The notes under the pieces were generated by a model that ran no database searches, was not told the DNA's origin, and was given only the letters and a program-made list of their open reading frames with translations. A DNA stretch of 20,946 bases from a virus, in IMG/VR virus record IMGVR_UViG_3300037189_014982, positions 1-20,946 of that record; one strand, given 5' to 3'. How positions within the stretch are numbered: the stretch's first letter is position 1; every line of letters starts with the position of its first letter. Made by a program: the position numbers and the translations under genes. Positions 890 through 17,182 of this stretch are shown here, one piece after another.

Positions 890-891
890 GG

Positions 892-3339
892 TTAAACCAA
901 AAGAAAGCGCATGGGGGAGTTCTGCGGCAACTTGTATATGGACGCGCTGTCGGTGGTTCCGGGGCCGTCTCCCTCGCCCATCAACCGCATCAGTTCCTCG
1001 ATGGCCTGCTGCTCGGCGTCAGTGGAATCGGGAGGCGGAGCCGGGGTTTCGGCCTCTGCCCCCTCTCCCATGAGCCGCATCAGTTCGGCCTCTGCGGCGG
1101 CTTCCTCGGGCGAGGCGGCAGTGGGATCACGGCCCAGTTGGTCTTCGATGTTGCGAATCGGCTTGGCGGCAGGCGGGCGCTGCACAGCGCGCTCACCATA
1201 CACCGGATACGGGTAGTCCTGCGAGCCAACTCCTGCGCGCGCAGCCTTCTCCATTGACGGGCTGGCGAGGAACGGCTCGCCGTTCCAGTACGCAGCAGCA
1301 TCCGGCGTAGTGGGCTGGTCTGGCGCGGCGGCAATCGACCGCTCAATAAGCGGCGTTATCCGCTCCATGAAATCGGGGTCTTCAATGGAAAACAGGCTGC
1401 GGATCATGGCCGTAATGTGCTGCCCGCTTGGCATCAGATTTGGGTATGAATAGTTGCCTTCTGCGTCTACCAACGCAAAAGGCGCGCGCCACCACGGAAA
1501 CATCTGGTCAAGGTCAACCGTTGCCTCGTTGTCGATAGGCGCGCTAAATAGGCCGGATGCCTCGGCTTCAGCCTCCGACACGCCCTCAAACTGATATTCT
1601 TTCCTGACCGGGGCGGTCTTCTGGTACAGCGGAACAATGACCTTTTCGTAAGCGCCAAGGTTGCGCCGCTGCACCTCGCGCTCAATCTCCAGTGGTTTCT
1701 TGCCGCTCCAGCGAGCGCCCGGCCTTTGGGAAGTGCCGGTGGTAACCACCGTGTCTGGGTCAGGCCCGGAAGACGGCATGGCAACGTCATACAGCGCGCG
1801 CCGTAGTTCAACGTCTTGCTGATCGAGCCAGCGGCTTGCGGCCTTGACCGCTTGCGTGCTGCTTTGAGAGCCACGCAATACAGAGTAGAGCGCAGGGAGC
1901 CGAACCCCACGGGGCAGGGTGCCAATGTTCTCATCCACAAAAGCCGCCACAGCGGCCCGCCTGTCGCGACTTGGCTGCACTACGCGAGGCAGCGTGGCAG
2001 CGCCCCCGGTTTGCTCGGCGGCGTCCTCGGCCTTGGCAAGTTGCCCAAGTTGATCGCCCGCAAGCCGGGAGCGAGCCGTGCCGCGAGTGCTTGCGGCACC
2101 CTCTGTCATGCCCCAAAACTCCATGTCATCTTGCGTCAGGCCGCCGCTGCCGCCGCGAGGGCGCTGCTCTGCTGTGTCGAGCATCCCGTGCAAGGGGCTA
2201 AGGCCGCGCGCCGCCGGAACGTCGAGCGGCGTGACGCCATCCTTTGGCTCGAAATGCGAGTGCGTGTCGGCGCTCTTGACCACTTTGTTCTTAGAGTTGA
2301 GGTAGTCAGGGCGCACCATGTGTGCGCTGTGGCGCGCAGACACGGCGAGATGCGAGCGATCCCACGTGGGGGTTTCCGCGTTAATCGTGGCCCGCGCGGC
2401 TGCGCGCGCTCCCTCTTCGTCATCGAACAAGCCGCTCAAGGCCGGGCCGTCGCCCACGCCTCCTTTTAAAGGCGCTTGCTGCGAGTCCCGCGTCACCGTG
2501 GCGTCAAGAAGACCGCCAAACAAATCCAGCACGCTATTGCCGGGGGCCGCCTCTGACGTTTGCGCTCGCTTGGGCGCAATCAGAACGCCCCCCCGCGTTG
2601 CCTGCACTTGCGCGTCCTTTAGAACCTGAATGAGGTTGCGTTGGCGAGCCTGTGGGCCATCAGGCGCGATAGTGACACGCCTCCATCCGCGCGCCTTTTG
2701 CGCCTCGCTCCAATCTGTGCCCGGCTGCTCGACCTCCACGCGCTCCTCGCCGCGCTTGGGGGCGGGTGGCTCGGCTTGCTTGGGGACGAGCAGTGTCCTC
2801 GGCCCAGCGCGTTCCACCGCCTCGTTTGTGGCCTGCGCAAACTTTTGCTTCTTTGCCGAACCGCGCTTGGCTTTCGCGGGCGCGGCAGGCGGCTCTGCCA
2901 ACCCTCCGCCCAGCAGTGGCTCAAACACCTCCGGCCTGCCTGCGCGGCGCAGCACCAGCGCCCTCTCGTCGGGCGACAGCCGCAGCAGCGCACCAGCCAC
3001 GTGCCCCGTAATCGTGTCTGGCTCGCGGCGGTGCGTCTCTGCGACGGTGCGCACCAGATCAGCCAACTCATTTAGTGGCTTGATGGCTTGGTTAACGCCG
3101 GATTTCGCCGCCTTGGCGGCCTGCCAGTTGGACAGGGCTTGTCTTGCGCGCTCGGCTATTACCTCGGCGCTCGCCGCAACGTCTTTTTCGGGGGCCAACT
3201 CCTTGTCAATGATGCCAAGACCGCCGTCCTCTGTGGGGGCAAGCGTCTCAACAACGCCCACGCCTTTGCCGTACTGCTCGGGAACGCCGAGTTGCGGCAG
3301 GCGCGCGCTGGCAAGGAGTTTTCTAGTTTCGCCAGCCAT
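892..3339 (-). CDS. Large hypothetical protein (815 aa), candidate internal virion protein
   Basis: The ATG at 3339 overlaps the TAA of the preceding 104-aa gene as TAATG, a sign of translational coupling. The 815-residue product has no signal peptide or obvious membrane segment. The N-terminal 140 residues look mostly helical, with a basic Ala/Lys patch at about 155-166. The middle is rich in Ala, Gly and Arg and looks poorly ordered. A more ordered part near residues 560-690 contains YSYPNLMPSG and a helix-like stretch ITAMIRSLFSIEDPDFM. The C-terminus carries two copies of LMRLMGEG (residues 753-760 and 783-790) separated by a Pro-rich spacer. I do not recognise a family, and I see no lytic transglycosylase or peptidase motif. 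In short-tailed phages large proteins encoded just after the tail genes are often ejection proteins; that role is only inferred from position and size. Confidence 0.8.
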   Translation of the reverse strand: MAGETRKLLASARLPQLGVPEQYGKGVGVVETLAPTEDGGLGIIDKELAPEKDVAASAEVIAERARQALSNWQAAKAAKSGVNQAIKPLNELADLVRTVAETHRREPDTITGHVAGALLRLSPDERALVLRRAGRPEVFEPLLGGGLAEPPAAPAKAKRGSAKKQKFAQATNEAVERAGPRTLLVPKQAEPPAPKRGEERVEVEQPGTDWSEAQKARGWRRVTIAPDGPQARQRNLIQVLKDAQVQATRGGVLIAPKRAQTSEAAPGNSVLDLFGGLLDATVTRDSQQAPLKGGVGDGPALSGLFDDEEGARAAARATINAETPTWDRSHLAVSARHSAHMVRPDYLNSKNKVVKSADTHSHFEPKDGVTPLDVPAARGLSPLHGMLDTAEQRPRGGSGGLTQDDMEFWGMTEGAASTRGTARSRLAGDQLGQLAKAEDAAEQTGGAATLPRVVQPSRDRRAAVAAFVDENIGTLPRGVRLPALYSVLRGSQSSTQAVKAASRWLDQQDVELRRALYDVAMPSSGPDPDTVVTTGTSQRPGARWSGKKPLEIEREVQRRNLGAYEKVIVPLYQKTAPVRKEYQFEGVSEAEAEASGLFSAPIDNEATVDLDQMFPWWRAPFALVDAEGNYSYPNLMPSGQHITAMIRSLFSIEDPDFMERITPLIERSIAAAPDQPTTPDAAAYWNGEPFLASPSMEKAARAGVGSQDYPYPVYGERAVQRPPAAKPIRNIEDQLGRDPTAASPEEAAAEAELMRLMGEGAEAETPAPPPDSTDAEQQAIEELMRLMGEGDGPGTTDSASIYKLPQNSPMRFLLV
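970..1083 (-). repeat. Duplicated LMRLMGEG motif in the 815-aa protein
   Basis: Two in-frame copies of an (A/E)ELMRLMGEG segment start 30 residues apart, at residues 753 and 783. They are joined by an acidic, Pro-rich spacer containing TPAPPPDSTD. Each copy would form a short amphipathic helix ending in Gly-Glu-Gly. The DNA copies are similar but not identical (CCCATCAACCGCATCAGTTC and CCCATGAGCCGCATCAGTTC on the plus strand), so the motif looks kept at protein level after an older duplication. Confidence 0.75.
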
Positions 3340-3653
3340 TACTTCTTGGGCTTCTTTTTCGGCGCGGGCTTGGCCTTGGACTCGATCTCGTCCATAGCCT
3401 CGTCGGACAGGTCTTCGTCATCCATTTCGACCGGGGCAGGGGAGCCGTGCTGCTCTTCTGCGAGGTCGGCCAGTTTCTCGCGCTCCTCGTCAGCCTCTTC
3501 AGTCGCCTCGTCTTTGTCTGCCTTCTCTTTCTTGCCGCGCTTGTGGATGGGCAGAGAGCGCTCTTTCTCCGACATCACGGCGTCTTCCAGCATCTCGATG
3601 AGAGCGGACTTCGTGAACTTCTTGAACGGGTTCTTGCCGAGATTCATTTCCAT
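3339..3653 (-). CDS. Small, highly charged hypothetical protein (104 aa)
   Basis: I choose the ATG at 3653 rather than the in-frame GTG at 3659, because the TGAGGT ribosome binding site (3660-3665) sits at good spacing from the ATG and overlaps the GTG. The product begins MEMNLGKNPFKKF. A short N-terminal region (KSALIEMLEDAVM) looks like an amphipathic helix, followed by a Lys/Arg patch, a long Glu/Asp-rich stretch and a Lys/Pro-rich tail ending in KPAPKKKPKK. This alternation of basic and acidic blocks suggests disorder and interaction with nucleic acid or protein partners. No family is recognised. The gene lies between a 170-aa gene ending at 3663 and the 815-aa gene, whose start overlaps its stop. 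Confidence 0.75.
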   Translation of the reverse strand: MEMNLGKNPFKKFTKSALIEMLEDAVMSEKERSLPIHKRGKKEKADKDEATEEADEEREKLADLAEEQHGSPAPVEMDDEDLSDEAMDEIESKAKPAPKKKPKK

Positions 3654-3659
3654 AGCCAC

Positions 3660-3665
3660 ACCTCA
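3660..3665 (-). promoter_or_regulatory. Ribosome binding site deciding the start of the 104-aa gene
   Basis: The coding strand reads TGAGGT just upstream of GTGGCTATG. The distance fits initiation at the ATG (3653) and is too short for the GTG (3659). It overlaps the stop of the preceding gene. Confidence 0.6.
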
Positions 3666-4175
3666 AATAAGGCCACCAAGGATCGTGGTCTGCCGCGCCT
3701 TTGCGGCCACCGCCTCCTTGATCATGCGTTCGTAGTCGGACAGGTTGACATCGACAAACCGCTTGTAAGCGGCCATGCGTTCCCGGTTGAGGGTCTGGTC
3801 GCGGCCCAAGATCAGGTCGCGCACCCAGCCCTTCTCGCCAGCCAGCCGCTCTTGGAACTGCAAGTCGGAGGATGCGGAGTCCGAGAACTTGGTCAGCATG
3901 TCCTGCTGGGCTTGCGCGTACCCCTTGGCCGCTTCGGTGTCGGCCTGCACGCCAGACCTGTAGGCGCCCATCTTGCCGCCAGCGCCGATGCCCTTGCCCT
4001 GCTGCTGGTTGTACTGGCGCTGGTCACCCTGATAAGCAGCCTGCGCCATCGCTTGGTTGCGGCTGGAGTCTTGCAGGCGCGCGTCCGGGGTGATCGGCCC
4101 GGTGAACGTCGTGCTGTAGTTGTTGTTGGTCTTGTACTGCGTGGGCGAGTTTGTCTTGGGCGAGTTGGTGAACAT
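3663..4175 (-). CDS. Hypothetical virion-region protein (170 aa) ending in GGLI
   Basis: The ATG at 4175 directly follows the TAA of the upstream gene (TAAATG). The N-terminal 70 residues are rich in Asn, Gln, Thr and Ser and probably disordered, with QGDQRQYNQQQGKG near residues 49-62. The rest looks helical and rich in Gln, Ala, Arg and Glu (from about residue 80), including SSDLQFQERLAGEKGWVRDL and ERMAAYKRFVDVNLSDYERM. The protein ends in a hydrophobic TTILGGLI. The neighbouring 198-aa protein has the same plan: disordered N-terminus, helical second half, and a WLSMIGGLL end. The two may be distant paralogues that act together, for example as small ejection or internal virion proteins. 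No family is recognised and the role is inferred only from context. Confidence 0.75.
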   Translation of the reverse strand: MFTNSPKTNSPTQYKTNNNYSTTFTGPITPDARLQDSSRNQAMAQAAYQGDQRQYNQQQGKGIGAGGKMGAYRSGVQADTEAAKGYAQAQQDMLTKFSDSASSDLQFQERLAGEKGWVRDLILGRDQTLNRERMAAYKRFVDVNLSDYERMIKEAVAAKARQTTILGGLI

Positions 4176-4772
4176 TTAGAGCAGCCCCCCGATCATCGAT
4201 AGCCACATAGCGGTCTGCTCGGCGTTCTCGTTCAGCCTCTCGGTGTGCCAGTACTGGGACAGGTCTTTGATGCCCGTCGTGTAGCGCGTGTCGGTGTCCT
4301 CACCAAAGATCGCCTTGTAGACCTCCATTTGGAAGCGGTCGCTGGCGTTCTGTCGCTGGGCAAGAATGTCCTCGGCGCGGGCCTTCTCGGCCTGCTGCCG
4401 GTACTCGGTGTTGAACTTGTCGGCAGACTTGTTGAGCGACTGTCGGCTGAAGTCGGCTACAGAGCGGGACAGCGCGGCCCGCGAGGACGCCCCGGCCCCG
4501 GAGCCGTAGGACTGCGGGGTCTGCTTTACGGAACTGATCTGCGCCATGCGACCGGGATCGAGCGGCGGGCGCGTTGAGATCGAGGACTGATAGCCACCGG
4601 CTGGCGGCTGGATTTCCGTTGGGCCTACGGTGGGGAAACGCGGGCTGCGGAAGCCCGGCTGCGGCATGCGGCCCAGCGGCGGCGGATCGGCAGGCTTCTT
4701 GTCGGCGGTGCCCGTGTAAGGCGTCCAGTTGCCGACTTGCTTGTAACCGGGGTTTCCGTAGTCAGAACGCAT
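4176..4772 (-). CDS. Hypothetical virion-region protein (198 aa) ending in GGLL
   Basis: The ATG at 4772 follows the stop of the 228-aa gene after 4 bases, with AGGGTG upstream as a possible ribosome binding site. Residues 1-90 are rich in Pro, Gly and Ser (PPPLGRMPQPGFRSPRFPTV) and probably extended. From about residue 95 the chain looks helical: SRAALSRSVADFSRQSLNK, then a charged Arg/Gln/Glu stretch, then ERLNENAEQTAMWLSMIGGLL with a hydrophobic C-terminus. It has no signal peptide. It shares its layout and its GGL(L/I) end with the next gene. I do not recognise a family; internal virion or ejection protein is a guess from position. Confidence 0.75.
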   Translation of the reverse strand: MRSDYGNPGYKQVGNWTPYTGTADKKPADPPPLGRMPQPGFRSPRFPTVGPTEIQPPAGGYQSSISTRPPLDPGRMAQISSVKQTPQSYGSGAGASSRAALSRSVADFSRQSLNKSADKFNTEYRQQAEKARAEDILAQRQNASDRFQMEVYKAIFGEDTDTRYTTGIKDLSQYWHTERLNENAEQTAMWLSMIGGLL

Positions 4773-4776
4773 GCCG

Positions 4777-5463
4777 TCACCCTGTCCACAAGAACGCGCT
4801 TTGGAGAAACTCGCCGGGCGGAGTGCCTACCTTCTTAATCCCGCATTGCCCGCCAAGGCTGTCCTTGATCTCGATCTGCTCGATGTTCTTGATCTGCATG
4901 AACTCTTGCGGCTTGAGCCGGATGCGGATCACCGTGCCCTCGGGCCGTTCCTCGACAGTGGCCTCTAAATATTCTTTTGGCTCGACTTCCACCGAAATCG
5001 GCACCGACTCGACCTCGCCGGTCGCAGCGTTAAGGCGAGCGTGGTCACCTCCCTGCTGCCGGATGTTCAGCGTCACCTCGGACTGCGACACCTCGTCCGT
5101 TGCTCCGGTAGCCACCGAGACAAACTTCCCGGCCTTCACATTGGGCGTGGACAGGGTGGGTGAGGCGGATGCGGGTTGGGCGCCGTCATACGGGTGCCGG
5201 GTGTCGCGTGGCTGATACTTCACGCCGCTGCCACGAACGCGCGCTCGGAATGGACTATCCACGGGGTGGTCGAGGTTCGGCAGCAGATACCGGCGGGTAT
5301 CGGCGTCGATCATGCGCATGCGGTCGGTCGGGGTGGCGTCCGATAACTGCGGGCCGGTGGACAGCCGCCCGGTGGCGGCGTTGTCGATGGCGTTGCTGAT
5401 GAGTTTGGCGGCTGCTGGCGAGATGCCGCCATTGATCAGGCTTTTCTCAAGATCACTCGGCAT
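4777..5463 (-). CDS. Hypothetical protein (228 aa) following the giant tail gene
   Basis: I prefer the ATG at 5463 to an in-frame TTG at 5472, because GGAG (5473-5476) lies 9 bases before the ATG and touches the TTG. The start overlaps the end of the giant tail gene by 11 bases. The N-terminal region (MPSDLEKSLINGGISPAAAK) looks helical, followed by a segment rich in Arg, Asp and Pro up to about residue 110. The second half is predicted beta-rich: SEVTLNIRQQGGDHARL, SVEVEPKEYLEATVEE and GTVIRIRLKPQEF. The end (GEFLQSAFLWTG) is hydrophobic. No family recognised. It could be a minor virion protein that attaches to the tail; that is inference from gene order. Confidence 0.75.
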   Translation of the reverse strand: MPSDLEKSLINGGISPAAAKLISNAIDNAATGRLSTGPQLSDATPTDRMRMIDADTRRYLLPNLDHPVDSPFRARVRGSGVKYQPRDTRHPYDGAQPASASPTLSTPNVKAGKFVSVATGATDEVSQSEVTLNIRQQGGDHARLNAATGEVESVPISVEVEPKEYLEATVEERPEGTVIRIRLKPQEFMQIKNIEQIEIKDSLGGQCGIKKVGTPPGEFLQSAFLWTG

Positions 5464-8400
5464 CCTCGACAACTCCGTTCAAGTTCAGGCTGTGCAGCAC
5501 GAACTGATGCGGCTGCTTGACGATGTCGTTCGCGATCCAAAAGTTGGTGCGCTCCCACGGGCTGGCCTGCTCCGGCCTGCCGTACAGTTCGACCTGAAGA
5601 TGCTGATCCTCTCCGGTCATGTCCGTGTACACGCGGGAAGCGAACTTGGCCTTGGCAACACCCGTGGCAAACCCAAGATGCGAGGCTTCACGGCTGGTGT
5701 TGAGGACGGTGCTGGCGCTGTCCTGCCGATGCACGAACCCGCCCGGCCCGCCTCGGTCGCGGCGCATCAGGTTGGCCCGCATCTCGTCGCGTCCGTTGAA
5801 CCGCTCGATGATCTCGACTTCCTTGTCGGACTGCGTAGGCGTATAGACCACCGTGACAGAGCGGTCGATCAGGCCGTCGCCACCCTTGGCGTTGTCCTCG
5901 TTGACCAACTGCATGAAGCCAGTTGCCATGCGGAACGGCACGTGGGTGCGGAACGGCTTGCGAAACATCACTTCCATTTCGGTGCCGCCGTAATCCAGCC
6001 AGCCCGGCGCATTGCCAACCAAGCCGTCGCCGGTCGCGTCTACACGGAATCGCTCCTCCATGGCCTTGGCAGCAGCCGTGCCCAAGGAATGCGACTCCAG
6101 CGTGGAAAGGTACTCCCACGAATCGGTCATCGACCACGCGGCCAGAAAGCCAAACGTGTTGTTGCGATACAGCAACTGATTGACGCCGTTGATGCGCTCC
6201 GCCGCGAGCGGCGTTTCGTTGTTGGCCGCAAACGCAGCCATCGTCAATCGATTGCCCCAGAACTTAATGGCGGTGCTGTTGGCAAAGAGTTCGCCAATCG
6301 AGTTGTAAGACAGGATCGTGCTTTCTTGCTGGTCGATCCATGTCTGCCCGGCGGGTGGGCCGTACACGCGCGCGGCCCCAAACAGCATGCTGACCGGCGT
6401 GCCGTCCGGGTGCGTGAGGTGGATGTTCTGGCCGTCGATCCGCGACACGAATGCGTTGAGCGGAATGAACGGCCCGATAGCCTCCATTCCAATCTCGGCT
6501 ACGGGGGTTTCCAGCCGGATCGGTGCAGTGGCCTCGGTGGTCAGTAGTGCGGACAGTTCGGAGGAGAGGTTAGCCGTGACGGCTGGCTCGATAGTCGTGA
6601 GCCTGCGGGGCTTGAGGCGAACGTAGTCCTGCCCCTTAGACACCGTGCAGAGGCGGCGAACCAGAGGGGTAACCGTGTAGTTGGCATAGGCCACCGCCTG
6701 CACTCCGCCCGGCTCCGGCGCGCCGATGTCCAGTTTGATGGCGTCGTACTCCACGCCCTGCAACGCCAGCCCATCGTGCGTGGCGAGTGGGCTGTTGTTC
6801 TCTGCGAGCAGGCCGATGCCCCACGATGCGGCCCAGCCAGCGCTCTGGATGATCACATCGACCAGCCGCCCCTCGCTCACCACGCCCCGGACAACCGCAC
6901 CTGTGCAGTTGGGCACCGTGATAGCGGGAGCCTCCCGGTATCCGCTGCCGCCCGCAGTCACGAACGCATCGGTGAGGGAGTCGTTGGCGTGATCGCTGTC
7001 TCCGGCGATCTCATACAGGTTGCCATCCACGCCCCCCAGCAGGATCGTGGTAAGGCGCGCATCGCTCGGCCTGCCGGTGCAGGCTGCGGTCAGGCTGTTG
7101 GGATAGGACTCTGTCCACCACGTGCCCGCCTGAATGTCGAAGCACAGGGCGAACGCTGGCGTGTCCGTGGGGTTCGTTTTGAGCGTGCAGAAGAACCGCA
7201 GAATGTGCGTGCGCGGATCGGTCTGTAGGAAGAACGTCTCCCGCTTGCTGAAGTCGATCAACTCGCTGACGAAGAAGTCGCGAATGGGTAGACTGATGTC
7301 CTTGACCTCGCCGTTACGGGCCATCGAGTAGATGCCCGATTCGTCGGCGGCATACAGCACGTTTTCGTGGATGTCCCACCCGCGCTGATGCAAACACCCT
7401 CGGTGCGCCATCATCTGGATCGAGGCGTCTACTGCCGGGTCGGTGTTGTAGGAAACGGCGTAGGTGTGCGAGTGCTGCATCGCAAGCAGCATGCTGCCGA
7501 ATGGAACGAGCGCAGTGAGAACGTCGGTGTTCTTCTGGTTGTTCTGGATCGGCAGTTCGTTCACATCGGGGAACGATTCAAACTCGTCAAACTCGCTATA
7601 GAACAGCGTGTTGACATCCTTGCCGCTAGTGCTGGCCCCCATCCAAAGGCGGTCTTGGAACGCCACGCCTACGGCCATGTCGGTGCGCGGCCTGCCAAAG
7701 CGATAGGCATTCACGGAGCCGTTGGGCAGCACGACAGGCATGGCAGCGTAGTTGGCCCGGTCGGGGTCGAACAACTGCTCGTCAGTCAGCGTGTCCCCGC
7801 CCACGATCTCGACGCCGTTCGGGCCGGGCGCCCCATACGCCTCCAGCCGATAGAACACCAACGATTGGTCGGCACTGGTGCGCCAGAGTTCAACCATGTC
7901 GGCACGGTCGGGGGGAGTCGCGCCCGGCAGTGACCAAACAAGTTTGGAGCAATGCGTGCGGCTGTCGTTTGGCCCGGCGTCCACATCAAAGATGGGCGAC
8001 AAGTCGCTGTAGGCGATTGGCTTGGTCAGGTCGCGAATCGTGACGGTTGTTGTCGGACGCGCGGCGAAGATCACAAGGTTGCCGCTGTTGAGCAGTTCCA
8101 ACTCGGCATTGGGGTATTCGCCGGGCGCGAATGTCTGTGTTGACCAATGCGGCAGGTCATCGCCCAACCGGATCGTCATGCGCCCCAAGCCGCCAAAGGA
8201 CAGGCGCGAACCGGCAATGCTGGTGCCCGCGTTCCAGATCACCGTGGAGGTGTCGAGGTCGGTGATCGTGAGGTCGCCGCCTGTCTCCATCTTGAGTTCG
8301 TATCGCCCGTTTGGAGAGCGAATCGCCTCTCCGGGGTCAAGAAACGATCCCGTTAGAATGCGAGACGCGCTGTTGCTGGAGCGCGGAGTAGCGGTGCGCG

Positions 8401-11239
8401 CCGGGTCGCTTTGCCAAACTGGCGCCCCAGTGTTTGCCAGCGCCGTGATCTCCTGATTGATCTCGACTTCGGCCCCGTTGACGCTTTTGATCTTGGAGCC
8501 AAACGGAATGCCTGTGCCCTCTACCAGCATGTCGGGCTTGATTTCGGCAGCGCCATAGCCGGTCAACGACAGGGTGGTGGGCGAGTCGAGGCGAGAAGCC
8601 GTGGCGGTGGCAACCACAGTTTCGGTGCGATCCACGTACCTGTACGCACAGCGGTACTTGCCACGCATCGCAGGACGCATGACGGTGGTCAGTTCCGCCG
8701 CCCGCGCGCTGGTGTAGAGTTCGGGGGCCGATGTGTAAGACGCGCCGGGGTCAGTGATCTGCACCGACTCGATCCGCCCGTTCTCGACGGTTGGCGTCAC
8801 CGCCAGCCCGTAGCCATTGCCTCCGCCGCGCACCAGAACAGTCGGCGGGGCGAAGTAGTTCTGGCCCTTGTTCAAAATCGTGATAGACGCGATTGAGCCG
8901 GTGCTTTGCGCCGAGAGCGTGTCGAGCGTGGCCGCCGACCATGTCAGGGTTTGTGCCGCCACGGCGGTAGATGCGGCGGCGCCAACATCGCGGCGAAGCA
9001 ACGTCACCGTGCCCGTAGCGCCGGTGGCGTAGCCGTCACCCGGAATCGTCACCGTGGCCGGAGTGAGCAGTGTTTGCGGCGGGCCGTGCGGCGTCAGATT
9101 GTCGGGCGTGTTTGCCGTAAACCGGAACTCCACGTACTTCGTGGACTCGCGCACGTGCGCGGCGCGCTTGGCGTCTTCCACGACGGCGGTGTTGTAGTCC
9201 ACCGTCTGGGCGTATGCGTTGGCCTGATACAGGCGAAAGGCGAACACTTGGCCTTTGGCCCAGCCGCGCCCCGCGTCGGTGATTGTCACCAAGTCAGCGG
9301 TGATCGGGGTCTGGGACGATGGCCGAATGTCAACGATTGGCCTCGGCACGGTGGTTTGCGGCGACCACCAAGGCAGGCGATTGGGCTGCGCCTCCTTCTC
9401 CTGTGTCGGCAGGCACTGTGTGAAATCGTTGGCGACCCAAGAGTCCGGGCACTCGCGCAGGTACAGTTTGACCTCGGGCGCAACGGGATCAGGCAAATCA
9501 TCGTAGGGCGAGTAGTCAGTTGCGAGAGTTGCGCCGCCGATCCGCCGCGCCGCGCGGGCGCGCTTGGCTGGCTTCAAGCGGAACCGCAGCACTTTGGCGC
9601 TGATGTTTGTGTTGGGATCGATCTCAGTCTCGACCGTGACGTTTACGCGCTGCCAGTGAGCGTCATCGCCGGAGTACTGCCCGGTGCAAAACCAAACACT
9701 GATCGCGCTATAGTCGGGCCAATACACATCTGCCCGGCGACCGTTCACAGTGCCGGAGCGCCCACGGACACGCCGGTTTCCGTGTGCTTGAAGGCCGCCG
9801 TAGATCGAGTTTTCGCCGCTGCCCTTCACATCGAAGTCCGACCCGGCCCAGTACTCGTCATACAGAAAGCGCTGGGTGCCGCCGCTGATTGGCCGATAGG
9901 TCTGCCAGTTGCGATTGATCGCCGTGATCGAGGCGTTGTTGGCGGCGTTCAGCCCAAACCCCAGCGGCGACGGCGAGAACTCCAGCGTGGCCTGCGCCCC
10001 CTTGCCCGTAGCAGAGGCCGAAGACAGGGGGATCGTCGCCCGGAATCGGCGAGTGTTGGTGTCATAGGCCGCCTCGGCCTGTGCGATGGTGCTGGCCCGC
10101 TGGAAAGTCGCCTCATACGAAGTGTTGGCAACCGGAGAGAAAGCGTTGCTCGACACCGTCACCACATTTGTCGAGATGTTCACCGCCGTAACAGTGACTG
10201 TCCCGGCGTTGAAGGGAGCCGCAGCGGGGTAGACGGTGACGGTGTCGCCGTTCTGAATGCCCGTGACGTTGTTGAGCGTGAGGTTCGCACCGGCAGCAGA
10301 CAGGATGCGCACCTTGGCAACCGTGGGCGACGAGCGGTACAGGATGCTGTTGCCCGTGGTGCCGTCCGTTGACCCGTAGGTCTGCGTGGCTGACGCCGCT
10401 GTGCCGGTGATCGTGGCGGAGGCGCTTTCGGAAAACCCGCTGACAGTGCGGGCGCTTGAGGAGATCGTGCCCCGCGCCCGAAACCCAGTGCCGACCTTGT
10501 CAGACGCGACCTCGATCCGGGGCGGCGACTTGTAGTTCAGGCCGCCGTCAACGATGTCCACGCCGACCACATTGCCAGACTGCACGATGGCCTTGAGTTT
10601 GGCTGCGCGATCTGGCGAGCCGCCGACCAGCGTCAGAGCGGGTGGCTCAAAATACGATCCGCCACCGGACTTCACATCGACGTTCTCGATGAAGTAGCCG
10701 GTTCCCTCCGGCAGCACAGACGGCGCGGACTTCGGTGCCAACAGTCCTATCGGGATGGCTACGTTGGCAAGGTCACTTGGCCGGTACAGCCGTGGCTCGA
10801 CGCCGTGTCCGTAGAAGACGAACATGCGACCGTGCCGATCCTCGGCCACGCACATGTTGCTGATCGGAGACGTTGATCCGGTGGGCGTGATTGGCAGGGT
10901 GTCGATGATTCGGGACTGATACCCCTCGATCCGCCGCAGCATCCACACGTACTCAAACCCGTACTCCTGCGCCGCCAGTTGCGTGCCGGTCAGTTCTTTC
11001 TCGACCAGCACCTTCTGGAGCCAGAGGAAGTCGTTGGGCGAGCCAAGGATCGTGGCTCGTCGGTACAGGCCGTAAATGGCCTCGTTATCGTACTTGCCGT
11101 AAATCTTGGTCAGGCCACGGCGCGAGAGCAGCATGCCGGGACGCCGGGCCTGCAAGTTGTTGAGTACACGGAGTTCGCCCGGTCGCAGCAGATACTGCGA
11201 AGCGTCTTCGTTGTACCCAAGCCACTGGCGAATCTTCAT
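5453..11239 (-). CDS. Giant tail protein (1928 aa), P22 gp10-like nozzle/hub with inserted beta modules
   Basis: The ATG at 11239 overlaps the stop of the adaptor gene as ATGA. The N-terminus (residues 29-49, RRPGMLLSRRGLTKIYGK) resembles the start of P22 gp10-type tail proteins, where a loop bearing PG and R-P-G-T/I-K precedes a beta-propeller. Residues about 1096-1416 look like the matching core: DRLWMGASTSGKDVNTLFYS, EFDEFESFPDVNELP, VLTALVPFGSMLLAM, and a later GGVDGNLYEIAGD. The C-terminus (LQVELYGRPE, residues 1881-1890) also fits. Known gp10/gp12 proteins are roughly 450-800 residues, so this one is unusually long. The extra length comes from beta-rich insertions: GxGY...PP modules (about 193-243, 783-842, 1424-1469), TGxxV/GTGIP modules (about 888-938) and a B-lectin-like domain (960-1062). 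It would sit at the tail end below the adaptor. The family call rests on motif memory, not on a search. Confidence 0.6.
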   Translation of the reverse strand: MKIRQWLGYNEDASQYLLRPGELRVLNNLQARRPGMLLSRRGLTKIYGKYDNEAIYGLYRRATILGSPNDFLWLQKVLVEKELTGTQLAAQEYGFEYVWMLRRIEGYQSRIIDTLPITPTGSTSPISNMCVAEDRHGRMFVFYGHGVEPRLYRPSDLANVAIPIGLLAPKSAPSVLPEGTGYFIENVDVKSGGGSYFEPPALTLVGGSPDRAAKLKAIVQSGNVVGVDIVDGGLNYKSPPRIEVASDKVGTGFRARGTISSSARTVSGFSESASATITGTAASATQTYGSTDGTTGNSILYRSSPTVAKVRILSAAGANLTLNNVTGIQNGDTVTVYPAAAPFNAGTVTVTAVNISTNVVTVSSNAFSPVANTSYEATFQRASTIAQAEAAYDTNTRRFRATIPLSSASATGKGAQATLEFSPSPLGFGLNAANNASITAINRNWQTYRPISGGTQRFLYDEYWAGSDFDVKGSGENSIYGGLQAHGNRRVRGRSGTVNGRRADVYWPDYSAISVWFCTGQYSGDDAHWQRVNVTVETEIDPNTNISAKVLRFRLKPAKRARAARRIGGATLATDYSPYDDLPDPVAPEVKLYLRECPDSWVANDFTQCLPTQEKEAQPNRLPWWSPQTTVPRPIVDIRPSSQTPITADLVTITDAGRGWAKGQVFAFRLYQANAYAQTVDYNTAVVEDAKRAAHVRESTKYVEFRFTANTPDNLTPHGPPQTLLTPATVTIPGDGYATGATGTVTLLRRDVGAAASTAVAAQTLTWSAATLDTLSAQSTGSIASITILNKGQNYFAPPTVLVRGGGNGYGLAVTPTVENGRIESVQITDPGASYTSAPELYTSARAAELTTVMRPAMRGKYRCAYRYVDRTETVVATATASRLDSPTTLSLTGYGAAEIKPDMLVEGTGIPFGSKIKSVNGAEVEINQEITALANTGAPVWQSDPARTATPRSSNSASRILTGSFLDPGEAIRSPNGRYELKMETGGDLTITDLDTSTVIWNAGTSIAGSRLSFGGLGRMTIRLGDDLPHWSTQTFAPGEYPNAELELLNSGNLVIFAARPTTTVTIRDLTKPIAYSDLSPIFDVDAGPNDSRTHCSKLVWSLPGATPPDRADMVELWRTSADQSLVFYRLEAYGAPGPNGVEIVGGDTLTDEQLFDPDRANYAAMPVVLPNGSVNAYRFGRPRTDMAVGVAFQDRLWMGASTSGKDVNTLFYSEFDEFESFPDVNELPIQNNQKNTDVLTALVPFGSMLLAMQHSHTYAVSYNTDPAVDASIQMMAHRGCLHQRGWDIHENVLYAADESGIYSMARNGEVKDISLPIRDFFVSELIDFSKRETFFLQTDPRTHILRFFCTLKTNPTDTPAFALCFDIQAGTWWTESYPNSLTAACTGRPSDARLTTILLGGVDGNLYEIAGDSDHANDSLTDAFVTAGGSGYREAPAITVPNCTGAVVRGVVSEGRLVDVIIQSAGWAASWGIGLLAENNSPLATHDGLALQGVEYDAIKLDIGAPEPGGVQAVAYANYTVTPLVRRLCTVSKGQDYVRLKPRRLTTIEPAVTANLSSELSALLTTEATAPIRLETPVAEIGMEAIGPFIPLNAFVSRIDGQNIHLTHPDGTPVSMLFGAARVYGPPAGQTWIDQQESTILSYNSIGELFANSTAIKFWGNRLTMAAFAANNETPLAAERINGVNQLLYRNNTFGFLAAWSMTDSWEYLSTLESHSLGTAAAKAMEERFRVDATGDGLVGNAPGWLDYGGTEMEVMFRKPFRTHVPFRMATGFMQLVNEDNAKGGDGLIDRSVTVVYTPTQSDKEVEIIERFNGRDEMRANLMRRDRGGPGGFVHRQDSASTVLNTSREASHLGFATGVAKAKFASRVYTDMTGEDQHLQVELYGRPEQASPWERTNFWIANDIVKQPHQFVLHSLNLNGVVEDAE
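5473..5476 (-). promoter_or_regulatory. GGAG ribosome binding site deciding the start of the 228-aa gene
   Basis: GGAG on the coding strand stands 9 bases upstream of ATG at 5463 and directly against the alternative TTG at 5472. It therefore favours the ATG. Confidence 0.55.
6833..6970 (-). repeat. GxGY...PP-type beta module, third clear copy
   Basis: Residues 1424-1469 of the giant tail protein read FVTAGGSGYREAPAITVPN, then EGRLVDVIIQSAGW. This matches the pattern also seen at residues 193-243 and 783-842: a Gly-rich turn with Tyr, a Pro, a beta strand, a Gly, and a strand with V-x-I-x-x-x-G. Similar units occur in structural proteins of T4-like cyanophages. Confidence 0.6.
8054..8362 (-). 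other. B-lectin (bulb-type lectin)-like domain within the giant tail protein
   Basis: Residues 960-1062 follow the bulb-lectin layout: ILTGSFLDPGEAIRSPNGRY, ELKMETGGDLTITD, a Trp (W1002) in TVIWNAGTS, a second repeat with HWSTQT (W1032), then ELELLNSGNLVIF. This matches the three-fold pattern of the family, in which SPNGRYxLxxQxDGNLVLYD alternates with xWxSxT. The mannose-site pattern QxDxNxVxY is degenerate: the first copy has E, G, D, T and T at the key positions, and the last keeps only N and V, with F for Y. The fold looks likely, but classical mannose binding is doubtful. In a tail tip the domain could touch host glycans. Confidence 0.65.
8714..8893 (-). repeat. GxGY...PP-type beta module pair, second copy
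   Basis: Residues 783-842 of the giant tail protein contain two linked units: ASITILNKGQNYFAPPTVLV and then GRIESVQITDPGASYTSAPE. They share strand-turn-strand spacing and the Y-x-(A/S)-P-P or Y-T-S-A-P signature with the other copies. Confidence 0.65.
10511..10663 (-). repeat. GxGY...PP-type beta module pair, first copy
   Basis: Residues 193-243 of the giant tail protein contain GGSYFEPPALTLVGG and, 30 residues on, VVGVDIVDGGLNYKSPPRIEV. Weaker relatives occur at residues 649-669 (TITDAGRGWAKGQVFAF) and 727-747 (TVTIPGDGYATGATGTV). The series is therefore scattered through the N-terminal and central part of the protein. Confidence 0.65.
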
Positions 11240-12363
11240 CCGATGTCAGGCATCAGTTCGCTGTGCCAGCCCATAGAGCGCGGTGTCGGATAGGGCGTGC
11301 TGTGCGGCCTGCCGGAGCGTGGCGCGAGAACATCGTTTTCCATCGCAATGCGAAGGTCGCGATTGAAGACGGCCATCGCTGCGTCGGCAGGCTTGCCTGC
11401 AATGCGGGCGTACCACATTTCGCAAGCCGAGAGGATTGCCGTGTACATCGTGGGCGAGACATCGATCTTGTCTGTGATCGCGTACTTGGTGTTGGCCGGG
11501 AGTGACGCGGAGTTGTTCGCGACGGTAAGCGCCGTGGCCGAAGCCACCGCAGAGATGTCGCGCTCAAGCAGATAGGGGATCGTTGCCCCCTGCGCCTCGG
11601 CCTCCATCCCGGCGGAGCCAAAGCGAATGACGGCACCGGCGCAGTCCAGTGGGAACGCCGTGCCCACGCCCGTAACGCTGGAGCCAGCCAGCGTGATCGT
11701 GCCCTGCCGTGTGATGCGTTCGTAGCCCATGTACTTGATGGGCTTGGGGCGAACGCGGTAGGTGTAATGCACCACCGTCCCGTTGACCGGAACACCCACG
11801 AACCGCACTTGCCACCTGTCGGGGTTCAGGTCAGACCGCATCAGCGTGTAGTAGTACGGCTCGCCCGCCCCTCTGGTGTTGATCTCCAGCCGCTGCCATT
11901 CCTGCGGGGTGAGGTAACAGTGCAGCGAGCCGACCGTGTTGGTGACGAGCGTGTCGATGTCCTTTAGGTCTGACGGCAGATCGTAGTAGGTCTGTGGCAG
12001 GACTGTGACACCGTTGGCCGTCTGGTTCGCGGCCACATCGACGGTGACGTTGTTGCCATTCACGCTGACGATGCGGATCGGAGTCGGGAACACAGAGGCG
12101 CCCACTGCGACCACTCGGCCCGGCACGAACCCGGTCGCGTCGGCCACTGCGATGACCTTGCTGCCCGTTGTGATCGAGCCGGTGGTCTGAATCTGCAAGG
12201 TCGTGAACGAGCCGGTGCGGGTGTGCCACAGCCAGTTCCGGCACTGGGTCACCTCGCGCACGCCGTGGATCACCGCCTGCCTGACGGCTGCATGTTCGCC
12301 GTCCTGCGCCCCGCCCCCGGTGGTCGCGAGGAGGTAGGCCACGATGTCCTGTGCAGTACTCAT
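11236..12363 (-). CDS. Head-to-tail adaptor-like protein (375 aa) with beta insertions
   Basis: The ATG at 12363 overlaps the previous stop as ATGA, and the stop likewise overlaps the start of the giant tail gene. The ends look like a phage adaptor helix bundle. The N-terminal helices (residues 1-48) include AAVRQAVIHGVREVTQCRNW, then a beta strand GSFTT and YYDLPSDLKDID (127-137), the usual 'LP.D...I' signature of gp4/gp11-type adaptors. The C-terminal helix (305-346) is YTAILSACEMWYARIAGKPA. In between lie two beta units: one like a tail-fibre 'ITTGSKVIAV...GTxI' unit (61-120) and one matching the common 'GTITLAGSSVTGVGTAF...YAITD' insert (220-298). It would dock beneath the portal and connect it to the giant nozzle protein, matching the gene order. 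The adaptor role is inferred from these motifs and position. Confidence 0.6.
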   Translation of the reverse strand: MSTAQDIVAYLLATTGGGAQDGEHAAVRQAVIHGVREVTQCRNWLWHTRTGSFTTLQIQTTGSITTGSKVIAVADATGFVPGRVVAVGASVFPTPIRIVSVNGNNVTVDVAANQTANGVTVLPQTYYDLPSDLKDIDTLVTNTVGSLHCYLTPQEWQRLEINTRGAGEPYYYTLMRSDLNPDRWQVRFVGVPVNGTVVHYTYRVRPKPIKYMGYERITRQGTITLAGSSVTGVGTAFPLDCAGAVIRFGSAGMEAEAQGATIPYLLERDISAVASATALTVANNSASLPANTKYAITDKIDVSPTMYTAILSACEMWYARIAGKPADAAMAVFNRDLRIAMENDVLAPRSGRPHSTPYPTPRSMGWHSELMPDIG

Positions 12364-12905
12364 CGCTTGCGAGGTTTCCGCCCGTATTTGCTGATTACGT
12401 ACTCACGTAACTCACCTTGTTTCATGGACGGTTGGCGCTTCGCCTCGGCCTTCATCATCTCCCGCGTCAATCGCTCGCTTAACGGCTTGCGATCCGGGCG
12501 CGGCTGCGCGATTCCCTGATGCTCGACTGCCCCGGAAACGGTCAGGTTTCTCTCGGCGGCCACCCGCTTAACGTCCCGCACGCTGTCGATCCACGCCGCC
12601 GGGTCTGCCGGGCCGCGCCCGTCTGCCAGCCCGGAGGAGTAGTACTTGCCGTTGGGGTTGATGCCTGCTCTGCGGGCAAGCGTGATCATGTTTTCGGCAT
12701 GGTCGCGCGGCATGCGGTCGAACTGCTGGTTATTTAGCCGACCCTCCATGAGCGCCCTGTCCGTGCCTCGCAGTCCGGGGGGCTGCTGGAGAGCAAGCAT
12801 CTCGGCCAGCCTTGGGGCCACTCCGTTGGCGACCATGTCGAGGTAGTGCGCCTGTATTTCGTCGCTGGCGCGCTGAATGTCGAAAGGCAGATCGTTCGTA
12901 CTCAT
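12360..12905 (-). CDS. Conserved podophage-type hypothetical protein (181 aa)
   Basis: The chosen start is the ATG at 12905; no clear ribosome binding site precedes it. The product begins MSTNDLPFDIQRASDEIQAH. The segment ARRAGINPNGKYYSSGLADG followed by PADPAAWIDSVRDVKRVAAE and NLTVSGAVEHQG (about residues 75-130) matches my memory of a family often found between portal and adaptor genes in short-tailed phages, with unknown function. The C-terminus is basic (SKYGRKPRKR). The first 58 codons overlap the C-terminal reading frame of the endonuclease VII gene. Because the N-terminal helices here look coherent, this is probably the older frame. A role in virion assembly is inferred from position. 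Confidence 0.7.
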   Translation of the reverse strand: MSTNDLPFDIQRASDEIQAHYLDMVANGVAPRLAEMLALQQPPGLRGTDRALMEGRLNNQQFDRMPRDHAENMITLARRAGINPNGKYYSSGLADGRGPADPAAWIDSVRDVKRVAAERNLTVSGAVEHQGIAQPRPDRKPLSERLTREMMKAEAKRQPSMKQGELREYVISKYGRKPRKR

Positions 12906-13158
12906 ACAGGTAGTCCCACGCTCGCTTCAGGGTTTCCTCGGTATCGCCCAGCATCCCAATGGCGCGGTTGCACGGACTGCACAGCAGGCCGCGAATGCCC
13001 TTGGTGTGATGACAGTGATCGACACAGAGTGTGCTTTGCTTCTGCCCGCATATCTGGCACTTCCCCCGGCACTTGCTGTGCAGGGCTTCGTACTCCTCTT
13101 GAGTCACGCGGTAGCGCACCCAGAGGTTGCTGCGGCGCTTGTGCTGGCAGGGCGGCAT
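12730..13158 (-). CDS. Endonuclease VII-like HNH nuclease (142 aa)
   Basis: The ATG at 13158 overlaps the portal stop as TGATG. Residues 30-71 carry the signature of T4 endonuclease VII-type His-Me finger nucleases: CQIC (C34, C37) and CSPCN (C60, C63) bind zinc, and VDHCH gives D47, H48 and H50. The residue after the last Cys is N64, matching N62 of the T4 enzyme, where D40, H41, H43 and N62 form the site. T4 gp49 resolves branched DNA before packaging, so a similar role in trimming DNA for packaging is plausible. The HNH domain ends near residue 88 (YLYEYERS). Residues 85-142 are Arg/Ala/Gly-rich and lie wholly over the start of the next gene in another frame. A free-standing homing-type nuclease is the main alternative. 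Confidence 0.85.
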   Translation of the reverse strand: MPPCQHKRRSNLWVRYRVTQEEYEALHSKCRGKCQICGQKQSTLCVDHCHHTKGIRGLLCSPCNRAIGMLGDTEETLKRAWDYLYEYERSAFRHSARQRRNTGALPRHGRQRSGPKAGRDACSPAAPRTARHGQGAHGGSAK

Positions 13159-15176
13159 CAGCCTCCCGGCATCAGTTCAGCCGGTACTTGTGGCGGAGGA
13201 GGGCCAGCCCCCGCCGCAGCCTGCTCCGGTGGGGAGGGGAGGCCGGGCGGCGCGGCAGGGGGCTGGGGGGGAGGTGGCGGAGGCAGCAAGTACGGAGACG
13301 CATCGATGTCGAGCGAGTCGGCCCAATCCTTCATCAGCGCGTTGAACGGCTCGATCATGCCGGAGCCAGCCAACTGCGACAGGATCGGCCCCAGCGTCTG
13401 CACGGCCATCTGCATCTGCTCGACGCGCGAGGCTTTGTTCGGCTTGCGGGCGCTGCCCGCCTCGACCCGGTACAGCAGTTCGCGGGTCAGGCCCACCAGA
13501 TCGCGCTTGTTGATGAACTGCGCCCACGCCGCAGCGCCCATCGGGCCAAGCACCGGGGCGATGTCCTGCGGCTCCAGTAGCCACCGTGCGGCCAACGCCT
13601 CGCGGCGAGCGAGGACAGACATGGTGTCCTCCAACTCGTTCGCCATGTTGTCCGGGCGGATGCTGATGTTCTCGTTCTTGATCTGGGCTTCTGCCGCCGA
13701 CCGGAAGGAACTTCTGGTGTAACCGTAGGCCAGTTCGCTCAAGCCCGTGCGCTTCGCGAACTCGTCCAAGATCGCGGAGATGATGTCCCACAAGTCCTTC
13801 GTGACTTGCGGCATCTGGAACACCGACACAACGTCCTCGATCCTGCGACCAAGCAGTTCGCTCAACTCCAGAATCTTGAAGCCGCCCTCGGATGGGGCCA
13901 GCAGTTGCTCCTTGATCGTCTCGTCCGCAGCCTTTTGCACGGCGACAATCGTTTCGCAACTGGTCGCGATCCGGGTGGCGAGGAACGAGAAGCACCAGTT
14001 CAGCAGCCGCAACTCGCCAATCGCCGGGCGGATGTGCGACACCGGCCATGCGTAGCCGGGCTTGCGGTGGAAGGCCAGCATCGTGAACGGCCAGCCGTTG
14101 GTGTCCGCGAAGAACGGGATCGGCCAACTGACGCGCGGGATGACCTCGGGCGGGATGCCCAGTTCCGGGTCTACGATCTCCTGCATCAGGGATGGCGGGA
14201 GATTTAAGGGGTACTCAACACCCTCGCAGACCACCAGATAGCAGTACTGGCCGACCGAATCGAACACACCGCGACTGCCCTTGGGTGCGTCCTTGAAGCG
14301 GTCGCCCATGCCGCACTTCGACCAAATCTTGTAGAAGGTGACCAGTTCGTTGGTCGTGTCCTTCTTCTTCTTGCCCTTCGGCTCGCGGCGCAGCGTGTTG
14401 TCGGTGTTGTCGTGATGCTTGCGCAGATGCTCGACCGGCACGCCGAATGTAGCGGCCACCTCTTCAATCGGGCGCACGCACTTCCGCGCGCACCAGAGCA
14501 TGTCATCCTCGTTGTCGAAGTCCGGGTCGATGAGGAGGTTGTCCACCGTGTCATAGAACGAGCCGACCAGTTTCATCGGCGGGATGCTGCCGTCGCTCGA
14601 CACCTCGACGCTGACCAGTTCTGTCCAGAACACGCCAGCGCCCTTGATCATCGCCTCGTTCACCACCTTGCGGGCCTGCCGCTTGAGGTCGAGTTCGACG
14701 GGCGTCCAGTTCAGGTACGCCTCCATCAGTTGCGCGATCAACTTCATCTGCTCGCGCTGGGCCTGCTCGGCCTGCACGGCTTGGATGACTTGCATCTGCT
14801 CCGGGCTGGGCTGGCCGTTTGGCCCGGCTGGCTCATCCAATCCCACGTGCTTCAGTGGGAACTCCGGCGGGTTCATCACTGTGACAGTGCGCACCGGATT
14901 ACGGTGGTAGATGACACTGGCGAAAATCTCGACCAGTTCAAATACCTTGTTCAGTTGCATCCTGAACGAGGGCGGGGCAATGGACGAGTTGTACCCCCGC
15001 TCGCCACGGGCGTAGGCGTCCCGCCACATCCAGTTGTGTTCGCCGTCGAAGAACTGGCTGGCTTCCTTGGCATCGTCACTGAACGGCTTCTTGTACTTTT
15101 CAGCCGCCTTGAGTTTCTTCACCCAAGTCGTGACGATCTGCCGCAGCGGGTTGCTACTTGGCAGGCTTTCTTGCAC
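13158..15176 (-). CDS. Portal protein (672 aa)
   Basis: The start is a GTG at 15176, with GGAG (15184-15187) 7 bases upstream. The protein would form the dodecameric ring at the head vertex that the large terminase feeds with DNA. The N-terminal part (residues 1-90) includes FFDGEHNWMWRDAYARGERG. Residues 205-260 carry the usual portal-wing text: GSFYDTVDNLLIDPDFDNED, then MLWCARKCVRPIEEVAATFG. The region near 440-545 fits stem and clip helices (KDLWDIISAILDEFAKRTGL, and NMANELEDTMSVLARREALA). The C-terminal 40 residues are Pro-rich with a run of PPPPPP, probably disordered. The length fits P22-like portals (about 725 aa). It follows the terminase and a small protein, a classic order. Family call is from motif recognition, not alignment. 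Confidence 0.85.
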   Translation of the reverse strand: MQESLPSSNPLRQIVTTWVKKLKAAEKYKKPFSDDAKEASQFFDGEHNWMWRDAYARGERGYNSSIAPPSFRMQLNKVFELVEIFASVIYHRNPVRTVTVMNPPEFPLKHVGLDEPAGPNGQPSPEQMQVIQAVQAEQAQREQMKLIAQLMEAYLNWTPVELDLKRQARKVVNEAMIKGAGVFWTELVSVEVSSDGSIPPMKLVGSFYDTVDNLLIDPDFDNEDDMLWCARKCVRPIEEVAATFGVPVEHLRKHHDNTDNTLRREPKGKKKKDTTNELVTFYKIWSKCGMGDRFKDAPKGSRGVFDSVGQYCYLVVCEGVEYPLNLPPSLMQEIVDPELGIPPEVIPRVSWPIPFFADTNGWPFTMLAFHRKPGYAWPVSHIRPAIGELRLLNWCFSFLATRIATSCETIVAVQKAADETIKEQLLAPSEGGFKILELSELLGRRIEDVVSVFQMPQVTKDLWDIISAILDEFAKRTGLSELAYGYTRSSFRSAAEAQIKNENISIRPDNMANELEDTMSVLARREALAARWLLEPQDIAPVLGPMGAAAWAQFINKRDLVGLTRELLYRVEAGSARKPNKASRVEQMQMAVQTLGPILSQLAGSGMIEPFNALMKDWADSLDIDASPYLLPPPPPPQPPAAPPGLPSPPEQAAAGAGPPPPQVPAELMPGG

Positions 15177-15447: not shown

Positions 15448-15454
15448 CGTCCAT

Positions 15455-17182
15455 TCAGTCGCTGGTGTCACGCGAGCGTCCTCCTTGTGGCCCCAAGAAT
15501 ACAAATCCCGGCCCGTCCTCCCCCAGCCGCTTTCTGCGCTCCTTCTGCCACTTGACCCACCACGGCTCGACCTCACCATTCTGGATGCGCGGCGCGTGGT
15601 AACGGGGGCGGTATGCGCAGAGGTATTCCAAGCACTGGCACAAGTGAACCTCCCCCTTGGTGTTCGGCCTGTCTGTCACGATAGCCGTCCCAGCAACGTA
15701 GTTCACCAACTTGCGATACCGCTTGATCTCACGCTCAAGGTCTGGGCAGGAGTTCCGTAGCACCCGGAGGATCGGCGTGCCGGTGGGGCGGATGTGCATG
15801 GCCGTGCGGCTGCTCTCGGTGCGGGCGATGATGTCATCGCACCCGGCCAAGAACGATGCCCCGGTGATCTGGCTGCGGATGCCGCGCTTCACCAACTGCT
15901 CCGTGTACTGCTCGGACGGGAGCCTGCCGGAGCCGATGTCGCGCAACCGGCCACCGTGCGCGTCGATGATGAAAGCGTGGAAGTTCCAATCTCGTACCTT
16001 CTTGGCGAACTCCTCGCCAAAGACCTCGGCGTTGGACTGCCGCAGATACAACTGGTCATAGACCAGCCAGTAGTCCTCGGTCGGCGGGACGGCGCAGAAC
16101 AGCACCGCCGTGACGGCGTGGCCGGGGTCGATGACGGCGTACCGGCACCACTCTCGCGGGACTTGCATGTTGGGCAACGCGCTCCGATCCATGCCGTGGA
16201 TACGCATGTCGAAGTTGGGGTAGACCAGCACGCTGTCCGTGATGAAGTCGCCCTCGGCGCGCATGCGGAGAACGTCTTCGCCCAGTGCCGCCCACCGCTC
16301 CAAACTCTTGGCCTTCTCGGTCGTGTCGAGGTAGGGGTTGTCGAGCATGCGGAGCCGGAACTGCCGGATGATCGACTTCTCTCCCAGCGCCTGCTCGCTG
16401 GCGTCGGCGCGCTCCTTCAGGCCCAACAGCGCGTTGTTGGTCGAGTGCGGCATAGCCGACCACGTGAAGACCCCCTTGCGGTCAACCAGACGGGCTTGGA
16501 GTTCCGGCACCCAGTTCTCATTGTTGATGTCCTCGTCCACGTGGGCGCGATCACATTGAAATCCCTGCACAGGCTCGCCTTCGGACGAGAAGAAGTGAAT
16601 CTCCCATCCCGTGTGCAGTTTGCAGTACTGCATGTAGTTGGCACTCTTCAGCACCCAACTAGTCGCTTTCACGAACCGTGGCGGAATCAGCGGCGGGGCC
16701 GGTTTCGTCTCGCCCTTGCGATGCTCGTCGGTCGCCGGGTTGTAGGCCCGCCACACCCCGGTGTTCTCGTCCTTGATGATGCGGAATGCGCCCGCGCGGA
16801 ACAACATCGGCACCACGACGAGTCCGATGTGCTTCCAATCTTTTCCCACGATGACGAGTATCCCTTCCTTGGGATACTTGCCGTATGGGTCTTGGTTCGT
16901 AACGCACCGGGCATCCTCCACGAACGTCGAGAGCGACTTGCCTGATCGGTTGCCGCCGATCACCAGAATCTCACTCGCCGTGCAGGCGTGGATCGCCTCC
17001 TGATTCGGGTTCGGGCGGTACAGCCGCAGCGACTCCAGTTTCCGCTCCCGCAGTTCGCTCTGGAGTTCCTTGATCGACTCCTTCTGAAACTGCGTCATCC
17101 CGGCCTGCGGCGGCACTACGGGGGGCTTTGCCTTGGGGTGCCGCTTGGGCTTCGATCCGGCGGGCTTCTTCTTGCGTGGCAT
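15455..17182 (-). CDS. terL: Terminase large subunit (575 aa)
   Basis: This is the packaging motor ATPase and nuclease. The ATPase has a Walker A motif GGNRSGKS (residues 76-83) preceded by an adenine-loop-like RPNPNQEAIHA (56-66). A Walker B-like segment QCDRAHVDEDIN (209-220) supplies the D-E pair at 216-217. The RNase H-fold nuclease shows AVIDPGHAVTAV (349-360, D352) and FIIDAHGG (404-411, D407). A third acid may be D504 in VTDRPNTKG or one near 519. Length fits the family. The chosen ATG at 17182 gives a basic KKKPAGSKPKRHPKAK lead; an internal Met at residue 29 (17098) is an alternative. The first 70 codons overlap the preceding gene in another frame. AAGGGA upstream may be a weak ribosome binding site. 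Confidence 0.92.
   Translation of the reverse strand: MPRKKKPAGSKPKRHPKAKPPVVPPQAGMTQFQKESIKELQSELRERKLESLRLYRPNPNQEAIHACTASEILVIGGNRSGKSLSTFVEDARCVTNQDPYGKYPKEGILVIVGKDWKHIGLVVVPMLFRAGAFRIIKDENTGVWRAYNPATDEHRKGETKPAPPLIPPRFVKATSWVLKSANYMQYCKLHTGWEIHFFSSEGEPVQGFQCDRAHVDEDINNENWVPELQARLVDRKGVFTWSAMPHSTNNALLGLKERADASEQALGEKSIIRQFRLRMLDNPYLDTTEKAKSLERWAALGEDVLRMRAEGDFITDSVLVYPNFDMRIHGMDRSALPNMQVPREWCRYAVIDPGHAVTAVLFCAVPPTEDYWLVYDQLYLRQSNAEVFGEEFAKKVRDWNFHAFIIDAHGGRLRDIGSGRLPSEQYTEQLVKRGIRSQITGASFLAGCDDIIARTESSRTAMHIRPTGTPILRVLRNSCPDLEREIKRYRKLVNYVAGTAIVTDRPNTKGEVHLCQCLEYLCAYRPRYHAPRIQNGEVEPWWVKWQKERRKRLGEDGPGFVFLGPQGGRSRDTSD

Follow-up and report, generated by a model that had tools for sequence, protein, structure and literature searches.

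In the putative tail nozzle protein of an uncultured short-tailed phage, residues 955-1064 form what is, on the evidence of sequence comparisons and a structural model, a bulb-type lectin domain (B-lectin, beta-prism II). The domain is encoded in the window, by which we mean the whole 20,946-nucleotide stretch of IMG/VR virus record IMGVR_UViG_3300037189_014982 that was analysed, and comparison with relatives indicates that it was inserted, as part of a cassette of about 129 aa, at a variable site. The residues that canonically bind mannose have been lost from it. We propose, with a probability of roughly 0.58, that this beta-prism II cassette of the nozzle is displayed outward, where it would touch the host envelope by means of a ligand other than mannose.

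15455..17182, minus strand: terminase large subunit (PHROG 2, E=4e-12)
13158..15176, minus strand: portal protein (PHROG 156, E=6e-4; SU10_portal, E=0.003, under the cut-off)
11236..12363, minus strand: adaptor protein, SU10-like (PF24175, E=5.7e-5, 24.1 bits, just below the cut-off of 27)
5453..11239, minus strand: putative tail nozzle protein, 1928 aa, carrier of the lectin (open reading frame, gene order, model against the SU10 nozzle)
8438..8626, minus strand: beta-module, about residues 872-934, directly before the insertion point (relatives compared; mean pLDDT mostly 79-90)
8051..8437, minus strand: inserted segment, about residues 935-1063 (linker plus lectin), missing from most relatives (relatives compared)
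8048..8377, minus strand: predicted B-lectin (beta-prism II) domain, residues 955-1064 (phmmer, profile, model)
7040..8017, minus strand: conserved nozzle core, residues 1075-1400, with part of the propeller (alignment of relatives)
6014..6277, minus strand: second inserted domain, W_rich_C, residues 1655-1742 (PF07483, E=2.3e-12, 47.3 bits, cut-off 26.2)

Sequence evidence for a B-lectin domain

An earlier note, made from the DNA sequence alone, had recognised a B-lectin layout at residues 960-1062 (8054-8362, minus strand), and phmmer, a 55-sequence profile and the model all agreed with it. The motif quoted there, SPNGRYELKM, is present at residues 975-984, a second motif, LLNSGNLVIF, lies at residues 1049-1058, and both Trp1002 and Trp1032 were found in the reading frame at 5453-11239 (minus strand). 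The extent is slightly wider than first stated, the lectin fold spanning approximately residues 955-1064 and the inserted segment approximately residues 935-1063. When the excised domain was compared with the PDB by phmmer, pyocin L1 was matched at E=2.2e-10; with the whole 1928-aa protein as the query this match had E=1.4e-6, and no PDB entries other than the pyocin lectins L1 and L2 were matched at E≤0.01. In addition, a phage B-lectin profile that we made from 55 non-redundant phage B-lectin domains aligned with residues 955-1064 of the window protein at 42 bits (i-E 5.5e-12), whereas 200 shuffles of the lectin region scored at most 2.4 bits. Together with the pyocin L1 E-values, this difference indicates that the resemblance to B-lectins is beyond chance. 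The anticipated similarity to PF01453 was also detected, but it was weak (E=0.0018, 19.2 bits), stayed under the curated cut-off of 32.4 bits and appeared only when the domain was scanned alone, not in the whole protein. The same curated cut-off is missed by several phage-tail B-lectins with intact motifs.

Predicted fold of the lectin region

The AlphaFold2 model of residues 860-1405, built on an alignment of 16 nozzle sequences, had a mean pLDDT of 62, and ten-residue blocks of the lectin region ranged from 63 to 87, with one block at 51. The beta-prism II fold, and not another, was found in this model, as expected for a bulb lectin. Among its best Foldseek matches were bulb lectins and LlpA bacteriocins, beside the SU10 nozzle, with target-normalised TM values of about 0.7-0.79 for single-domain plant lectins. 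VIA-align 2 gave Z of about 12-16 when model residues 98-206 were superposed on plant lectins and on pyocin L1, and most of the alignments with single-domain plant lectins gave 1.6-2.6 Å over about 95-105 residues. A lectin-only AlphaFold2 model (three sequences) was poor, with a mean pLDDT of 38, and was discarded; the fold assignment therefore rests on the longer 860-1405 model.

The lectin-like bacteriocins (LlpA, pyocin L1, putidacin L1) provide the best sequence match and share the predicted fold (Z about 13.5-14), but the LlpA-type proteins are secreted, stand-alone tandem B-lectins, whereas the window encodes one such domain, embedded in a virion protein of 1928 aa. The plant bulb lectins of PF01453 (snowdrop, garlic, daffodil) also have this beta-prism II fold, with about 98 of 109 residues superposing at about 1.6-2.2 Å; these three lectins and pyocin L1 reach Z 13-16 against the model. 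Unlike them, the window lectin, at about 20-24% identity, lacks the canonical mannose residues and falls below the Pfam cut-off.

The carrier is probably a nozzle of the SU10 type

The earlier note had placed the lectin within a phage nozzle, and gene order, Foldseek and superposition of the propeller all support this placement. The genes run terminase, portal, adaptor and then nozzle, although the SU10-type matches of the portal and adaptor are weak. Foldseek ranked the SU10 nozzle (7z47) first for the model, and residues 1281-1381 (model 422-522) could be superposed on residues 720-821 of that nozzle (Z 13.6, 2.1 Å). This segment would be part of a seven-bladed propeller, which superposes on SU10 in part, model residues 288-422 having pLDDT under 50. 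A profile of the core also gave a weak sequence match to the Pa223 tail protein 9nwi_Y. On sequence and model grounds, we regard the window protein as a nozzle of the general SU10 type. According to the part of the SU10 description consulted (PMC9509320), the nozzle proteins of SU10 assemble into a hexamer at the tip of the tail, and their nozzle domains sit as insertions between propeller blades 2 and 3. The likeness thus covers the gene order after portal and adaptor and the superposed propeller part, whereas the nozzle domains reported in that part of the source are Ig-like, with no lectin described, and the window nozzle has a lectin.

The PHROG matches of the protein to baseplate and head proteins trace back to repeats that lectin-less relatives have too, and the lectin does not account for them. 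A search of the genome contigs with two short peptide patterns did not find the nozzle core, and hence we assign no host. A contig of 50,953 bases, IMGVR_UViG_3300032305_001455, is 99.95% identical to window positions 1-17239 (17,239 bases); all 8 differences fall at 2427-3675 and 0 in the lectin.

The lectin occupies a variable insertion site

Scans of viral contigs yielded 62 distinct rows in the survey of nozzle relatives. The junction is flanked by '..VEINQEITAL' upstream and 'VRDxTKPxxYS' downstream, and between these flanks lie, in the window protein, about 129 additional residues that include the lectin. The flanks are directly joined in the close relatives L005, L006, L007/L008, L009, L010, L011, L012 and L016. 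A diverged lectin occupies the same junction in L066 and L107; the L066 domain is 25% identical to the window lectin (BLASTP, E=3e-5), and the L066/L107 lectin has pyocin L2 as its best PDB match and no match in Pfam. Other relatives have GSGY-type modules (L043, L069, L074) or apparent module duplications (L053, L122/L123) at this junction, and the preceding beta-module is also missing in a more distant nozzle clade. None of the other nozzle-locus ORFs scored above 3.3 bits against the phage B-lectin profile. By tblastn, no relatives of either lectin insert, that of the window or that of the L066/L107 type, were found in 50,697 phage records; a weak match in PaBG (E=2) was obtained for the window insert only.

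When the lectin was mapped on a core tree with 56 sequences, at least two changes were required, and the lectin-bearing nozzles did not form one clade. A single lectin-bearing clade was therefore rejected, and the distribution could possibly reflect two gains, exchange, or one old gain followed by several losses. Between L066 and L107, dN/dS was about 0.16 for the lectin and 0.02 for the core, which implies that this lectin is constrained yet evolves faster than the core, as expected of a surface-contact module. The GC content of the insert (0.625) equals that of the gene (0.627), leaving a recent foreign origin of the insert unsupported.

At the site of the second inserted domain, W_rich_C, the relatives have a short linker instead, and the domain was missing in the four relatives scanned with Pfam. 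The L005 nozzle ORF (5001-10436, plus strand) has, close to its C-terminus, a second site with what seems to be another copy of the beta-module, so more than one nozzle site seems to accept modules.

Degeneration of the sugar-binding sites

Alignments with the HMM and with pyocin L1 located three sugar sites, which compare with the QxDxNxVxY motif as follows.

8261..8287, minus strand: sugar-site 1, residues 985-993, ETGGDLTIT, 0 of 5 canonical residues
8168..8194, minus strand: sugar-site 2, residues 1016-1024, GGLGRMTIR, 0 of 5
8066..8092, minus strand: sugar-site 3, residues 1050-1058, LNSGNLVIF, 2 of 5 (N and V)

The degeneracy noticed earlier thus holds for every site, and even site 3 is without the Q, D and Y. 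By comparison, the first site of the L066 and L107 lectins, QADGDLVIY, keeps four of the five canonical residues. Since all three sites are degenerate, binding of mannose by the usual route appears unlikely for the window lectin, and a changed sugar or a protein ligand is more likely. Among accepted LlpA lectins, too, the motifs are difficult to make out (PMC6240691), which implies that site loss bears on the ligand and not on the fold. In LlpA bacteriocins one B-lectin domain recognises the D-rhamnose of LPS, the other is used for a loop of an outer-membrane protein, and the sugar motifs are kept mainly in the D-rhamnose-binding domain (PMC6240691).

B-lectins in other phage tail proteins

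A DNA scan of viral contigs for the intact motif MQxDGNxVxY, which by design selects for intact sites, returned at least 120 stretches (L180-L299), and the encoded proteins were mostly 515-570 aa among the matches listed. In eight of the ten motif proteins scanned against PHROGs, a B-lectin comes after minor tail protein L (phrog_18); the lectin part of these proteins is matched by PHROG 19296, which is listed with no assigned function. Bulb lectins are thus common in phage tails. Minor tail protein L (PF05100 plus PF01453) resembles our case in bearing a B-lectin on a phage tail protein; there, however, the lectin is C-terminal to PF05100 and its QxDxNxVxY sites are intact, as the scan selected, whereas the window lectin lies inside the nozzle and is degenerate.

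A B-lectin in a phage tail is therefore an already known kind of feature, and what is new here is that the carrier is a nozzle, where the lectin is inserted, and that its sugar sites are degenerate. No description of a bulb lectin in a phage nozzle was found in the literature searched, which consisted mostly of freely accessible texts and is weak evidence. In the tail adaptor of phage DEV, an insertion of 101 aa that faces outward has been described as a lectin-binding domain (PMC10925440). DEV gp83, the head-to-tail adaptor, is thus similar in that a core tail protein of a short-tailed phage has an insertion pointing outward; it is nevertheless a different carrier protein from the window nozzle, and is likened to it by description and not by fold.

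Proposed role of the lectin cassette

The cassette precedes the conserved part of the nozzle core that contains the propeller. By analogy with SU10, the nozzle hexamer would present six lectin copies outward, and these could touch the host envelope by way of a non-mannose glycan or a surface protein. The affinity of each copy might be low, with avidity arising from six together, and before DNA is delivered the contact may help the tail to become anchored or oriented. Module swaps at the junction would adjust how the phage touches its host and leave the channel-forming core unchanged. The precedents of the LlpA domains, the DEV adaptor insertion and the B-lectins in minor tail protein L support such an outward contact role. 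A farther-reaching and more tentative suggestion is that the nozzle doubles as a swappable receptor-binding platform whose lectin recognises a host protein or an unusual sugar, not mannose.

Both a changed ligand and a purely structural role, the two options named in the earlier note, were retained, and a non-mannose ligand is favoured. The structural role is its main rival, since with all three sites degenerate the domain could be a mere spacer or an assembly contact: the beta-prism would brace the subunits to stabilise the nozzle or dock a tail protein, without binding a receptor. The loss of the canonical sugar residues, the close relatives that work without a lectin and the other small beta modules at the same site are consistent with this. 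However, two lineages have a lectin at this site, one site in L066/L107 keeps most of its canonical residues, and dN/dS shows the lectin changing faster than the core; we consider a purely structural decoration rather unlikely.

Persistence of the N and V in site 3, and the intact sites in many phage tail B-lectins, could point to a working lectin whose ligand, bound through this remaining site, is an ordinary mannose-type host glycan, but the complete loss of sites 1 and 2 and the missing Q, D and Y make this improbable. The degenerate sites would also be compatible with a functionless, decaying relic of an acquired lectin. Such decay is very hard to reconcile with an open frame free of stops, the retained core tryptophans and full-length profile match, the GC content shared by insert and gene, and the purifying selection on the homologous L066/L107 insert. 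On the favoured reading, contact with the host envelope through a non-mannose ligand, the cassette is probably a swappable host-contact module, assembled from components that phage tails already commonly have.

Should the cassette determine contact with the host, the host range of these uncultured phages could shift by a domain swap in the nozzle and not only via the tail fibres. The junction motif offers a simple handle for reading such nozzle modules from metagenomes, and bulb lectins, as the function-less entry of PHROG 19296 illustrates, are a common yet little-described part of phage tails.
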